DNA of 64,000 nt from NCBI RefSeq assembly GCF_016907295.1, contig NZ_JAFBBR010000001.1:2356001-2420000 (forward strand), read 5' to 3'. Position numbers and translations under genes: made by a program. Each line of letters opens with the position of its first letter. Within the stretch, counting starts at the first letter, position 1. The notes beneath the pieces were generated by a model. It was not told the origin of the DNA. It ran no database searches and saw only the letters and a program-made list of their open reading frames with translations. The DNA is from Microbacterium dextranolyticum. Its GTDB lineage: Bacteria; Actinomycetota; Actinomycetes; Actinomycetales; Microbacteriaceae. Positions 39,345 to 51,849 of the stretch are shown in pieces.

Positions 39345-40277
39345 CTAGGGTGTGTTGCTAAAGGTTGATTTGTGGCGCGCGGGTGACGCTTGAAGCGTGG
39401 CGCCTACTGAGATCTCCGATGAGGTGTGGGCTGTGATCGGCCCGTTGTTCCCTGTTCCGAAGGCGACGGGCAGGCCGCCGCTGGAGCGCCGTGCGGTGGT
39501 GGAGGCGACCGCATGGCGGTATCGGACGGGGGCTCCGTGGCGGGAGGTGCCGGAGCGGTTCGGGAACTGGAACACGATCTACAAGAAGTTCAACCGGTGG
39601 TCCGAGCAGGGCGTCTGGGCGCGCGTGCTCGAGAAGGTCCAGTCCCTCACGCATCAACGCGGCGAGTTGGACTGGGTGGCGTCGATCGACTCGACGATCG
39701 TGCGCGTGCATCAGCACGGCGCGACCCTCCGCCGGGACACAGGGGGCTCGGTCGAACTACAAGAAGTTCGGGCCGGAGCCTCCTGACCACGCGATCGGCC
39801 GCTCCCGCGGCGGGTTGACGACGAAGAACCATCTGGTCTGCGACGGGAGAGGCCGGGCTCTCGCGTTTGTGCTGACGCCGGGGCAGGCGGCGGACACGAG
39901 CATGCTGATCGACACGCTCTCCGAGGTCCGCGTAGCCGGCCGCACCGGCAGGCCGAGGTCGCGGCCGGACCGGCTGCTCGCGGACAAGGGCTACCCGTCG
40001 AAGGCGAACCGGGCCTGGCTGCGTGAGCACGACATCGCCGCCACGATCCCCGAACGCGACGACCAGATCGCCCACCGTCGGAAGAACCCCGGCCGTCCGA
40101 TCGACTTCGGCCGCGAGCAGAAGGAACGCTACAAGGGCCGCAACGTCGTCGAACGCTGCTTCAACAGGCTCAAGCAGTGGCGCGGTATCGCGATGCGCTC
40201 AGACAAGACCGCCCGGAACTACCACTCCGCGATCTGCCTCGCCGCGACCCTCCAATGGGTTTAGCAACACACCCTAG
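39345..40277 (+). mobile_element. IS5-family insertion sequence 1 (IS427-group type)
   Basis: 933 bases counting both copies of the CTAG target. The terminal inverted repeats are identical over 18 bases: CTAGGGTGTGTTGCTAAA at 39345-39362, and its complement at 40260-40277. CTAG on each side is consistent with a 4-base (YTAR) duplication of the IS427 group. One transposase read through a frameshift fills the element. The right-hand CTAG also supplies the TAG stop codon of the minus-strand VanY-type gene. A second related element lies at 50920. Confidence 0.93.
39397..40264 (+). CDS. IS5-family transposase with frameshift (IS 1)
   Basis: Predicted DDE transposase of about 288 residues made from two overlapping frames. 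Frame A (GTG 39397 to 39786) holds the N-terminal helix-turn-helix domain (DUF4096-like: ISDEVWAVIGPLFP, AVVEATAWRYRTGAPWREVPERFGNW) and the first catalytic Asp (WVASIDSTIVRVHQHG). Frame B (to 40264) holds HLVCDGRGRALAFVLTPGQAADT, the second Asp (LLADKGYPSKANRAWL) and the DDE Glu with its lysine (RYKGRNVVERCFNRLK). The crossover is probably at ACAGGGGGC, G5 at 39742-39746, with a +1 shift. Both halves are intact, so the element may be active. Confidence 0.88.
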
Positions 40278-41968
40278 TACCCGGGCGCAGCGGGCAGCCC
40301 GAGGTACTGTTCGTAAGTCGCAACACCCCCGTCGTGCATCTCGCGCGCGACGTCCCTCCCGACGTAGCGAAGGTGCCATGGCTCGTAGTCGTACCCGGTG
40401 ATGCCGGTGTACCCCTGCGGGTAGCGCACGATGAACCCGAACTGCCAGGCGTGGTCAGCGACGAAGCGACCCGCCGCGGTCGAGCCGAAACACTCGACGA
40501 GATCGCATCCCGCTCCCGGCGAGGATACATCGATCGCGAGTCCGGTCTGATGCTCGGAATACCCGGGCCGGGCGGAGATCGCTTCGGCGGCATCCCGCCC
40601 CAGCTGACGGACGAATCGATCATGGATCGCGGCCTGACTGGTGAAGCTGCGGTACCCGCTCGTCGCCGCCAAGGGGATGCCCCATCGTCCAGCCTCCCCC
40701 GCGAGATCGCGCATGGCAACCGCAGCCTCGGGGCGCAGCATTTCGCCACCCCCCAAACCGAGCGCGGACATCGGCCATAGCGGAGGAGCATACTGGCGCG
40801 GGTTCAGCGGCGTGCGTTTGTTGACGAGAACCGTCAGGCTACCAGCGCTCGTCTGATCGTCGACCGGCCTGGTTCCGCGCGGGTCGACGTCCGTGCAGAC
40901 CAACCATTGGTTGCTCCCCGTTCCGATGTTGAGGCCAATCACACACACCGAGATCGGCGCGCTTCGCGTGATCGGCGGAAGCCGAACGTCGACGCCGCGG
41001 TTGCCGAGCCCGTACGGCGCCATCTCGGGGGAAGCCGCGGATGCAACGGGCGCTGCGGTCAAGGTGCCGCTCTGGAACACGCCGACCTGGATCGGCGAGC
41101 CGAGGTCACTGCGATCGAACGCGTAGCCCGTCACGTTGATCGACCCGTTGCCGTTCATCGATACCCGAAGCGCTCCCTCGGGGTCGTAGGTGATCACCGA
41201 TGCAGTCACATCACGGCATCCGATGATCGCATCGCCGCCTGGTGGTCGGTCGCGTGCGACGACGCAGACGCGGTGACCCCCCGAACCGATGCCTACGGCT
41301 CCGAAGAAAGCGTGAGACCCAGGAACACCGTAGGGCGCGAGGTAGGGGCTAGCCCCGCTAGCCGTCCACGTTCCCCGTGAGACACCGTCCACGAAGACAT
41401 CGACTCCGATGGACGCGTAGAGGTCAGAATGGTCGAAAGCCCAGCCAAGCACGATGAGTCGCGCGTTGGCATCGTCGACCACGACCGAGAGGTCTCCCTG
41501 CGGCGAACTCGCCGAACGTGCGTCAGACACGACGACCGTCGAACATGGGGCAGAAGTATCGGATCCCGGCCCCACGTTGGTCCACGTGACGCAGACGTCG
41601 TATTGCCCTGGCGCGAGCCGGAAAGCCGTCCAGAACGCATGCTGACCGGCCACCCCGTATGGCCAGAGGTACGGGGAGGGGCGCCACGCCGTCGTCGTCG
41701 AGAACGTCAGACCGTTCACCGTGATGACGGTGCGTACGTCGCGCCCGAAGTCGCTTCTGTCAAAAGCCCAGCCAACGACCTGCACGAGCCCGTCATCGGC
41801 GACGACCACCGATACGTCGCCCTGAGGCGACTCGTCGACGGCCGCGGACGCGGGACCGGGGAACGCGATCCACGATGCGGCGACAAGAACTGCGGCGACC
41901 CACAGGGACACCATCATAAGAGCACGAGGGATCAACGTATCTCCGATCAAGCCAGTTGATTGCTCCAC
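40274..41968 (-). CDS. secreted D-alanyl-D-alanine carboxypeptidase (VanY/M15) with N-terminal repeats
   Basis: 564 residues. A signal peptide (about 15-42, ending PASA-AVD) is followed by three similar ~107-residue modules (about 48-148, 155-255, 262-362), each with PxG(D/A)xxV, GWAFDxSD or GYAFDRSD and SPY/EMAPYG motifs; their role is probably surface binding. The C-terminal 180 residues are a VanY peptidase: SGYRSF (437-442), [11 protein letters not shown] with H473 and D480, and EPWHLRYVG with H532. It trims peptidoglycan stem peptides outside the cell. The GTG start overlaps glf by 22 bases; a TTG at 41935 preceded by GGAG is an alternative. The TAG stop is part of an IS target CTAG. Confidence 0.88.
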
Positions 41969-50891: not shown

Positions 50892-50919
50892 CCGGACTGA
50901 ATCGGCCTAACTTTCGTTC

Positions 50920-51849
50920 CTAGGCCGTGTTGCTAAATGTGGTTCCGGGGTGCGTGGGTGATGCTGGGAGCGTGTCGCGAGATGTCATCACGGACGAGGC
51001 TTGGGAATTGATCCGGGAGGTGTTCCCGCCGGCGAATTCACGGGGGCGTCCCCCCGTGGATCGACGCGTGGTGGTCGAGGCGACTGCGTGGCGGTTCCGG
51101 ACGGGTTCTGCATGGAGGGATCTGCCCGAGCGCTTCGGGAGCTGGAACACGATCTATAAGAACTTCCGTCGTTGGGCGGCCGAGGGGGTCTGGGAAGATC
51201 TGCTCGCTCACGTGCAGCGTCGCGCATCGCTTCAGGGCGAGATCGAGTGGGTCGTGTCCGTTGACTCCTCGATCGCTCGCGTCCACCAGCACGGCGCAAC
51301 CCTTCCCCGCAGCACAGGGGGCTGGATCGAGTTACAAGAAATCCGGGCCGGAGCCGCCTGATCACGCGATCGGCCGGTCACGCGGCGGATTGACGACGAA
51401 GATCCATCTCGTGTGCGATGGGCAGGCCCGGACGCTCGCGTTCGTCCTCACCGGCGGGCAGGTCGCGGACACGAGCATGTTCACCGACGTTCTCGACGAG
51501 ATCCACGTCGCGGGGCGAGGGCCCGCGCGTACCAGGCCCGAGCGGGTGCTCGCAGACAAGGGATACCCCTCGAAGAAGAACCGGGCGTGGTTGCGCGAGC
51601 GCGGCATCAAGGCCACGATCCCCGAACGCGACGACCAGATCGCCCACCGCCGAAAGCGAGCGGGCCGCCCTATCGATTTCGGTCATGAGCAGAAGGAACG
51701 CTACAAGGGCCGCAATGTCATTGAGCGCTCCTTCAACTTCATCAAGCAGTGGCGAGGACTCGCATCCCGATACGACAAGACCGCCAACTCGTACGCAGCC
51801 GGGATCTGCCTCTCAGCCGCCCTTCAATGGATTTAGCAACACGCCCTAG
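50920..51849 (+). mobile_element. IS5-family insertion sequence 2 (IS427-group type)
   Basis: 930 bases counting the CTAG on both sides. Terminal repeats CTAGGCCGTGTTGCTAAA (50920-50937) and the complement of CTAGGGCGTGTTGCTAAA (51832-51849) match at 17 of 18 positions. The transposase is related to that of IS 1, but many residues differ, so the two are distinct elements. As with IS 1, the right CTAG contains the TAG stop codon of the minus-strand gene downstream. Confidence 0.93.
50972..51836 (+). CDS. IS5-family transposase with frameshift (IS 2)
   Basis: About 287 residues across two frames. Frame A (GTG 50972 to 51361): HTH domain, VITDEAWELIREVFPP and RFRTGSAWRDLPERFGSW, plus the first catalytic Asp in VVSVDSSIARVHQHG. 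Frame B (to 51836): HLVCDGQARTLAFVLTGGQVADT, second Asp in VLADKGYPSKKNRAWL, and Glu in RYKGRNVIERSFNFIKQW. The same ACAGGGGGC sequence as in IS 1 (G5 at 51317-51321) marks the likely +1 slip. No internal stop other than the frameshift. Confidence 0.88.

Follow-up and report, generated by a model that had tools for sequence, protein, structure and literature searches.

In the insertion sequence (IS) IS870, the CTAG target is said, going by the title of the 1993 paper of Fournier et al., to make the stop codon of the element's own open reading frame (ORF). Two IS5-family elements that abut the stop codons of their neighbouring genes, IS 1 and IS 2, are analysed here; both lie in a stretch of 64,000 nucleotides from Microbacterium dextranolyticum (positions 2356001-2420000 of a one-contig 3.18 Mb genome), and this whole stretch is referred to as the window. 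The element TnRErm46/ISRe46 of Rhodococcus equi, which belongs to the IS481 family, targets CTAG and is flanked by the direct repeat NCTAGN. In the available text of its description, the TAG of the target supplies stop codons, including those of some target genes (parB), and gene function is stated to be uninterrupted (PMC6794481). For IS5 of Escherichia coli, the accessible part of the source gives CTAG for 15, CTAA for 3 and TTAG for 3 of 24 targets, with the consensus YTAR (PMC5493358). Also in the actinobacteria, an IS5-type element with CTAG direct repeats and a single ORF (IS5 group), ISMysh01 of Mycobacterium shottsii, is described in the sections available to us (PMC9241763).

The positions of IS 1 and IS 2 are probably the result of a passive niche, in which CTAG is chosen as the target and gene-breaking insertions are lost, without any targeting of stop codons. 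CTAG is found at all four junctions of the two elements (starting at positions 39345, 40274, 50920 and 51846), and the right-hand CTAG of each element is the stop of a minus-strand gene, which encodes a VanY-type protein ending in LPAAPGY* at IS 1 and an AlgX-like protein ending in VGPGY* at IS 2. The initial annotation had placed both elements on these stops, and its coordinates and reading frames are correct; its description of the elements as related yet distinct also holds, with second-frame transposase proteins that are 73% identical. In both cases the site has C and G as its outer bases, so the TAG was present before the insertion. Of 19 VanY homologues from related genomes, 18 end 0-2 residues past the same tyrosine and the remaining one continues. 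For the AlgX-like gene, no homologue was found in 35 other genomes at an E-value of 1e-20, and its Pfam match, which is clear, spans profile positions 1-128 of 268.

According to the proposed mechanism, the transposase would insert at a CTAG-centred target with a wider preference, chiefly for G or C three bases to either side, and the central TA would be duplicated, judging from the junctions. As the element starts with G and ends with C, TAG would be read toward the element at both junctions, regardless of the outer base. A gene would keep its exact protein end if the target is a TAG stop after a codon ending in C. Stops would then be common among the surviving insertions, since CTAG is rare in these GC-rich genes, the last bases of about 8% of genes are CTAG, and stop CTAGs fit the flank preference more often than intergenic ones, with insertions inside genes presumably lost by selection. 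A factor that recognises stop codons would be unnecessary.

Related insertions were collected from two sources: named genomes supplied 79 loci, and a further 160 stretches were taken because they surround transposase matches. The stretches were drawn from overlapping sets of 366 genomes of the genus, 398 of the family, 396 of the order and 394 of the class, with transposase matches in 63, 27, 22 and 7 genomes, respectively, from which mainly near-full-length matches were chosen. From 269 transposase hits, the 256 with at least 47.5% identity entered the search for element ends, which were located for 198 (173 distinct insertions) and not for 58. Those flanked by TA on either side, 154 distinct insertions, were kept. 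After removal of L097, which is not from an actinobacterium, 153 were classified with gene calls from our own simple codon-usage caller.

The 153 targets comprised 41 stops, 29 sites in genes and 83 intergenic sites, versus 92, 290 and 349, respectively, among 731 background CTAGs. Stops were over-represented against all other sites (odds ratio (OR) 2.54, p 3e-5) and against intergenic sites (OR 1.87, p 0.006), and gene interiors were avoided (OR 0.36, p 7e-7; Fisher's tests). When sites with shared flanks were merged and counted against the hypothesis, 36 of 147 were at stops (OR 2.25, p 5e-4; against intergenic sites OR 1.67, p 0.035). A test made without gene calls gave stop ORs of 1.4 to 2.3 across four thresholds (p 0.07 to 3e-4); when it was restricted to sites with G/C at both flanks, the ORs were 1.05 (p 0.91) and 1.25 (p 0.39) at the two thresholds tried.

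The bases around the targets also depart from the background. At the 134 CTAG targets, G/C was favoured at -3 (p 7.5e-07) and +3 (p 2.8e-06), with other departures at +5 (p 0.0009), -1 (p 0.0025), +8 (p 0.0025) and +1 (p 0.013) and weaker ones at -2, -6 and -16; of the 32 flank positions tested, -3, +3 and +5 survive a 32-test correction and -1, +8 and +1 do not. G/C at both -3 and +3 was found at 69% of 75 intergenic targets versus 34% of 349 background intergenic CTAGs. This combination is commoner among the 92 background stop CTAGs (65%) than in the intergenic background, as would be expected if -3 is a wobble base. In a logistic model with the bases at ±3 and ±1, the stop OR was 1.29 (z 1.0, standard error of the log 0.25), which is not significant, and the in-gene OR stayed at 0.31 (z -4.35). 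Thus, the excess over sequence-matched intergenic sites by which stop-codon targeting would be recognised was not found. The special niche at stops that had been proposed in the initial annotation is not supported, as 112 of the 153 insertions are off stops and the flank-adjusted OR over intergenic sites is 1.29. The outcome that the initial annotation had named as refuting its idea, proportional hits on non-stop CTAGs, is nearly what is observed when gene interiors are left aside, but the raw excess at stops (OR 2.5) is real.

The 41 stop sites involve 44 genes, which are mostly genuine: 32 of them were scanned, and Pfam domains were found in 27, several of them matched to the profile end, and the matched genes include those for tRNA-guanine transglycosylase, CarD, MgtE and alanine dehydrogenase. 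Together with the VanY homologues that end alike, the complete Pfam domains of many other genes bear out the claim that the protein end can stay unchanged. The stop of a CarD-type gene (Pfam) is exactly hit at L237:6875-7357, and that of a tRNA-guanine transglycosylase gene at L290.

CTAG is indeed rare, with 25 occurrences in the window versus 68.6 expected from shuffles, and the elements prefer it as had been claimed (134 of 154 targets). The 19 window CTAGs that are not ends of IS 1, IS 2 or the IS remnant at 50319-50456 comprise 1 stop, 16 sites in genes and 2 intergenic sites, according to our own gene caller. TAG ends 489 of 2340 confident genes, and 191 of these TAGs follow C, so that CTAG is the ending of about 8% of these genes, which is enough for stops to make up a large share of the harmless CTAGs. 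In the background, 92 of 731 CTAGs are C-preceded TAG stops, a sizeable share of the sites available, which supports the initial annotation on this point. Three intact copies were found in the genome by protein search at the threshold used, and all three are on TAG stops. The third is a near-identical copy of IS 2 (second-frame protein 100% and first frame 99% identical) at about 2126787-2127710 of the genome, and sits on the TAG stop of an IS481-family transposase, in the CTAG flanking that IS481 element.

The targets of the 154 insertions (read as XTA|TAY) were CTAG in 134 cases, CTAA in 8, TTAG in 8, GTAG in 2 and CTAC in 2. The terminal bases of the element, read inward, were both G in 152 of the 154, and departures occurred on one outer side only. 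If 4 bp were duplicated, a TTAG target would give TTAG on both sides, yet one side is canonical, which argues for duplication of TA. The simplest reading suggested by the non-CTAG junctions is a duplicated 2-bp TA around an element that ends in G...C, and these junctions also suggest that the third base of the junction TAG is the element's own G and not part of the target. Duplication of the four bases CTAG is disfavoured by the 20 non-CTAG sites. Two empty sites (100% identity, 300 bp) carry a single CTAG (L175 versus L162, and L289 versus L288); these were used from 8 spanning hits, the other 6 being partial, of lower identity or IS-related, and both are CTAG sites and so compatible with a 2-bp or a 4-bp duplication. 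Insertion at an in-frame TAA turns the stop into TAG (L179), and insertion at an in-frame tyrosine codon (TAC) creates an immediate stop (L045, L062 and L242), in both cases because the element would supply the G. A long common target, considered because both right flanks read CTAGTA-C/G-CCGGGC, was rejected, as it is not general across the 134 CTAG targets.

Besides the passive niche, several other explanations can be considered. Stop codons could be targeted as such, by the transposase or by a partner (the ribosome, a terminating RNA polymerase or a 3'-end structure) that directs insertions beyond sequence. The raw enrichment would fit this (OR 2.5 against all CTAGs and 1.9 against the intergenic ones), and so would the three of three intact copies at stops in this genome. 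However, the excess over intergenic sites loses significance once the ±3 and ±1 bases are taken into account (OR 1.29) or G/C is required at both -3 and +3 (OR 1.05 and 1.25), one of the three copies is at the end of an IS481 transposase and not of a host gene, and no orientation bias relative to the gene was observed, all of which makes stop targeting unlikely. Among the 41 stop insertions, the stop lies to the right (convergent) in 20, to the left (codirectional) in 18 and on both sides in 3. An orientation bias, considered because the gene whose stop is hit is convergent with the element for each of the three copies in this genome, is rejected on this split, and the agreement of the three means little. 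The initial annotation had suggested that the 3' ends of the genes may be changed; terminators carried or lost at the junctions were found near the chance level in our scans (3 versus 1.7 expected and 1 versus 1.2 expected). Two of two copies at stops could also be a small-number coincidence without a general bias, with a probability of about 1.6% at the background rate (92/731) and about 7% at the rate of the real insertions (41/153), or about 0.2% and 2% for three of three when the third intact copy is counted. The many mapped insertions off stops (112/153) agree with such a coincidence, but the over-representation of stops (OR 2.5, and 2.25 after merging of sites) makes it very improbable.

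The reading we regard as hardly credible is that the insertions cut genes short and that these appear complete only because the element supplies the TAG. The terminal G of the element makes a TAG from any in-frame TA, as fits the three tyrosine codons mentioned above; in both window cases, however, the outer bases show that the stop TAG pre-existed, and the VanY homologues stop at the same place. A further, rather doubtful idea is that the G/C preference at -3 and +3 and the TAG-restoring end evolved to steer insertions to spared gene ends in GC-rich genomes. If this is true, a safe haven would be targeted by sequence only, and unrelated families that share CTAG (IS5 and IS481) would become mutual landing sites.

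A number of points weigh against the passive niche and the TA duplication as put forward here. The sample lacks the 58 transposase hits that gave no ends and the 19 distinct insertions that were dropped for want of TA on both sides, and the background CTAGs were taken only from the flanks of insertions. The gene caller visibly errs, as it missed a large minus-strand ORF at 44598-46385 and called L189, L215 and L220 differently, although these share one gene end. The 95% range of the stop OR of 1.29 is about 0.8-2.1, which leaves room for a modest true preference, and the ±3 and ±1 covariates were picked after viewing the same data, with +5 and +8 left outside the model. The evidence for a 2-bp duplication comes from the 20 non-CTAG sites, none of which has a clean empty site. 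Finally, 3 annotated plasmid copies, whose gene tables are incomplete, were read from 231 records with a match, and none of the 3 was at an annotated stop.

Table 1. Features of the two insertion sites and the neighbouring genes, in window positions.
Feature	Position	Strand
Acyltransferase-like gene (label from inspection of the protein, without family search)	38220..39305	-
Left TA copy at the IS 1 target (inferred duplication), inside CTAG 39345-39348	39346..39347	
IS 1, 927-bp element of the IS5 family with inverted ends GGGTGTGTTGCTAAA... and two overlapping transposase frames	39348..40274	+
First transposase frame of IS 1 (DUF4096; NCBIfam IS5_3)	39397..39786	+
Second transposase frame of IS 1 (DDE domain); own TAG stop within the right inverted end	39698..40264	+
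Right TA copy at the IS 1 target, inside CTAG 40274-40277; makes up the VanY-type gene's stop together with element base 40274	40275..40276	
VanY-type carboxypeptidase gene; stop TAG at the right junction of IS 1; start possibly at 41968	40274..41917	-
Small gene, weak glyoxalase-like matches below NCBIfam cut-offs	50514..50891	+
Left TA copy at the IS 2 target (inferred duplication), inside CTAG 50920-50923	50921..50922	
IS 2, IS5-family element, 924 bp	50923..51846	+
First transposase frame of IS 2 (DUF4096)	50927..51361	+
Second transposase frame of IS 2 (DDE domain)	51261..51836	+
Right TA copy at the IS 2 target, inside CTAG 51846-51849; makes up the AlgX-like gene's stop together with element base 51846	51847..51848	
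AlgX-like gene; stop TAG at the right junction of IS 2	51846..53051	-

The coordinates of both sites are listed in Table 1. IS 1 now lies between the VanY-type gene and the downstream acyltransferase-like gene, which were spaced by 39 bp before the insertion, and IS 2 occupies a former 28-bp gap between the AlgX-like gene and the convergent small gene (stop 28 bp from the IS 2 target). The inverted-repeat ends match at 19 of 19 nt in IS 1 and at 95% of 19 nt in IS 2, with the palindromic CTAG counted in, and these short ends together with the probable short TA-centred target duplication fit the IS5 family. Pfam DUF4096 and DDE_Tnp_1 score above cut-off in both elements. The frames of IS 1, the only element scanned against NCBIfam transpos_IS5_3 (NF033580), score 115.9 and 148.5 versus a cut-off of 110. 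No IS481 model is among the listed matches of the IS 1 transposase, which is thus not of the IS481/TnRErm46 type. The transposase is encoded in two overlapping frames, which would fit the two-CDS (coding sequence) IS427-type subgroup outlined in the available sections of PMC9241763 if the frames are joined by frameshifting. A CAGGGGGCT run at the frame overlap in both elements (39740-39748 in IS 1 and the matching place in IS 2) is a candidate site for -1 frameshifting. The transposase frame ends at a TAG that lies within the element, at 40262-40264 in IS 1 and 51834-51836 in IS 2, and does not show an IS870-like self-stop. A remnant of about 130 bp, with a reversed IS5-type right end and with CTAG on both sides, is present at 50319-50456 and starts 17 bp past the end of the gene at 49465-50301.

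The IS481-family element beside the third copy has its ends at L148 5691 and 6783, with CTAG on both sides, and its transposase (343.5 bits versus a cut-off of 224) reads past its own end into the TAG. In another genome, at L160:12036-13128, a putative further IS481-type element, judged by its identical ends and very similar protein end, has IS5-type copies on both sides. In both genomes (L148:5691-6783 and L160:12036-13128), the IS5-type copies have inserted precisely into the CTAG beside an IS481-type element. Elements that are unrelated but have CTAG in common nest at the junctions of one another. In addition, one 30-base gene end (protein end VLLESD) joins an IS5-type copy in four genomes (L189, L215, L218 and L220), and the other side differs.

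In longer relatives of IS 1 and IS 2 (1.3-2.4 kb), which have like ends and for the most part CTAG targets, the transposase is followed by an extra gene before the right end (L051, L055, L064, L067, L070, L074, L076, L081, L160, L167, L168, L246 and others). The extra genes vary by element and include GNAT acetyltransferases (4), AHSA1, DUF1254, formyltransferase, SUKH, CAAX protease, LysE, glyoxalase and P-loop kinase-like genes; 24 were found and 20 scanned, of which 12 had a Pfam match (2 weak). A 1309-bp relative is represented by 16 distinct TA-flanked insertions (L159, L162, L163, L199-L202, L204-L206, L251-L253 and others), and in L159, the only copy checked, its 389 extra bases have no ORF of 60 codons. 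At L251, the flanks of this 1309-bp element make a perfect palindrome of 64 bases with the target CTAG at its centre, for which a hairpin target, paired element ends and an assembly artefact are candidate causes. The flanks at L203 are palindromic too, but without TA.

The counts show how a plain four-base target can mimic aiming at stop codons. The impression arises because CTAGs are few in GC-rich genomes and a large share of them are stops, and because the remaining hits did little harm. Caution is needed with a junction TAG, as it may be part element and part target, with TAA rewritten to TAG or a stop made at a tyrosine codon; such partly element-derived stops should be corrected for, both in annotation pipelines and in work on gene-sparing transposition.

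Compared with IS870, in which the self-stop reportedly comes from the target, the transposases of IS 1 and IS 2 have their own TAG inside the inverted end. ISMysh01 shares the CTAG repeats with IS 1 and IS 2 and differs by its single ORF and by the lack of a stop-codon link in the text available (PMC9241763). IS5 of E. coli has the same family name and targets very like those of this sample; it is described, in the accessible part of the source, with a 4-base duplication and no stop-codon link, whereas a TA duplication fits better here (PMC5493358). In the literature searched, which covered few subscription papers, and as far as the texts were available, no count of IS5-family insertions at stop codons versus background CTAGs was found. 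TnRErm46 is like IS 1 and IS 2 in its CTAG target, the TAG of which serves as the stop of some target genes, and unlike them in its IS481 transposase, its NCTAGN repeat and its supply of its own transposase stop; its account, in the text available, comes without a count versus background CTAGs (PMC6794481). The gene-sparing effect of CTAG/TAG has already been described for TnRErm46, going by that same text (PMC6794481), and what is added here is the count versus background, together with the preference for certain flanking bases, the probable duplication of TA and the absence of a significant stop preference once sites are matched.

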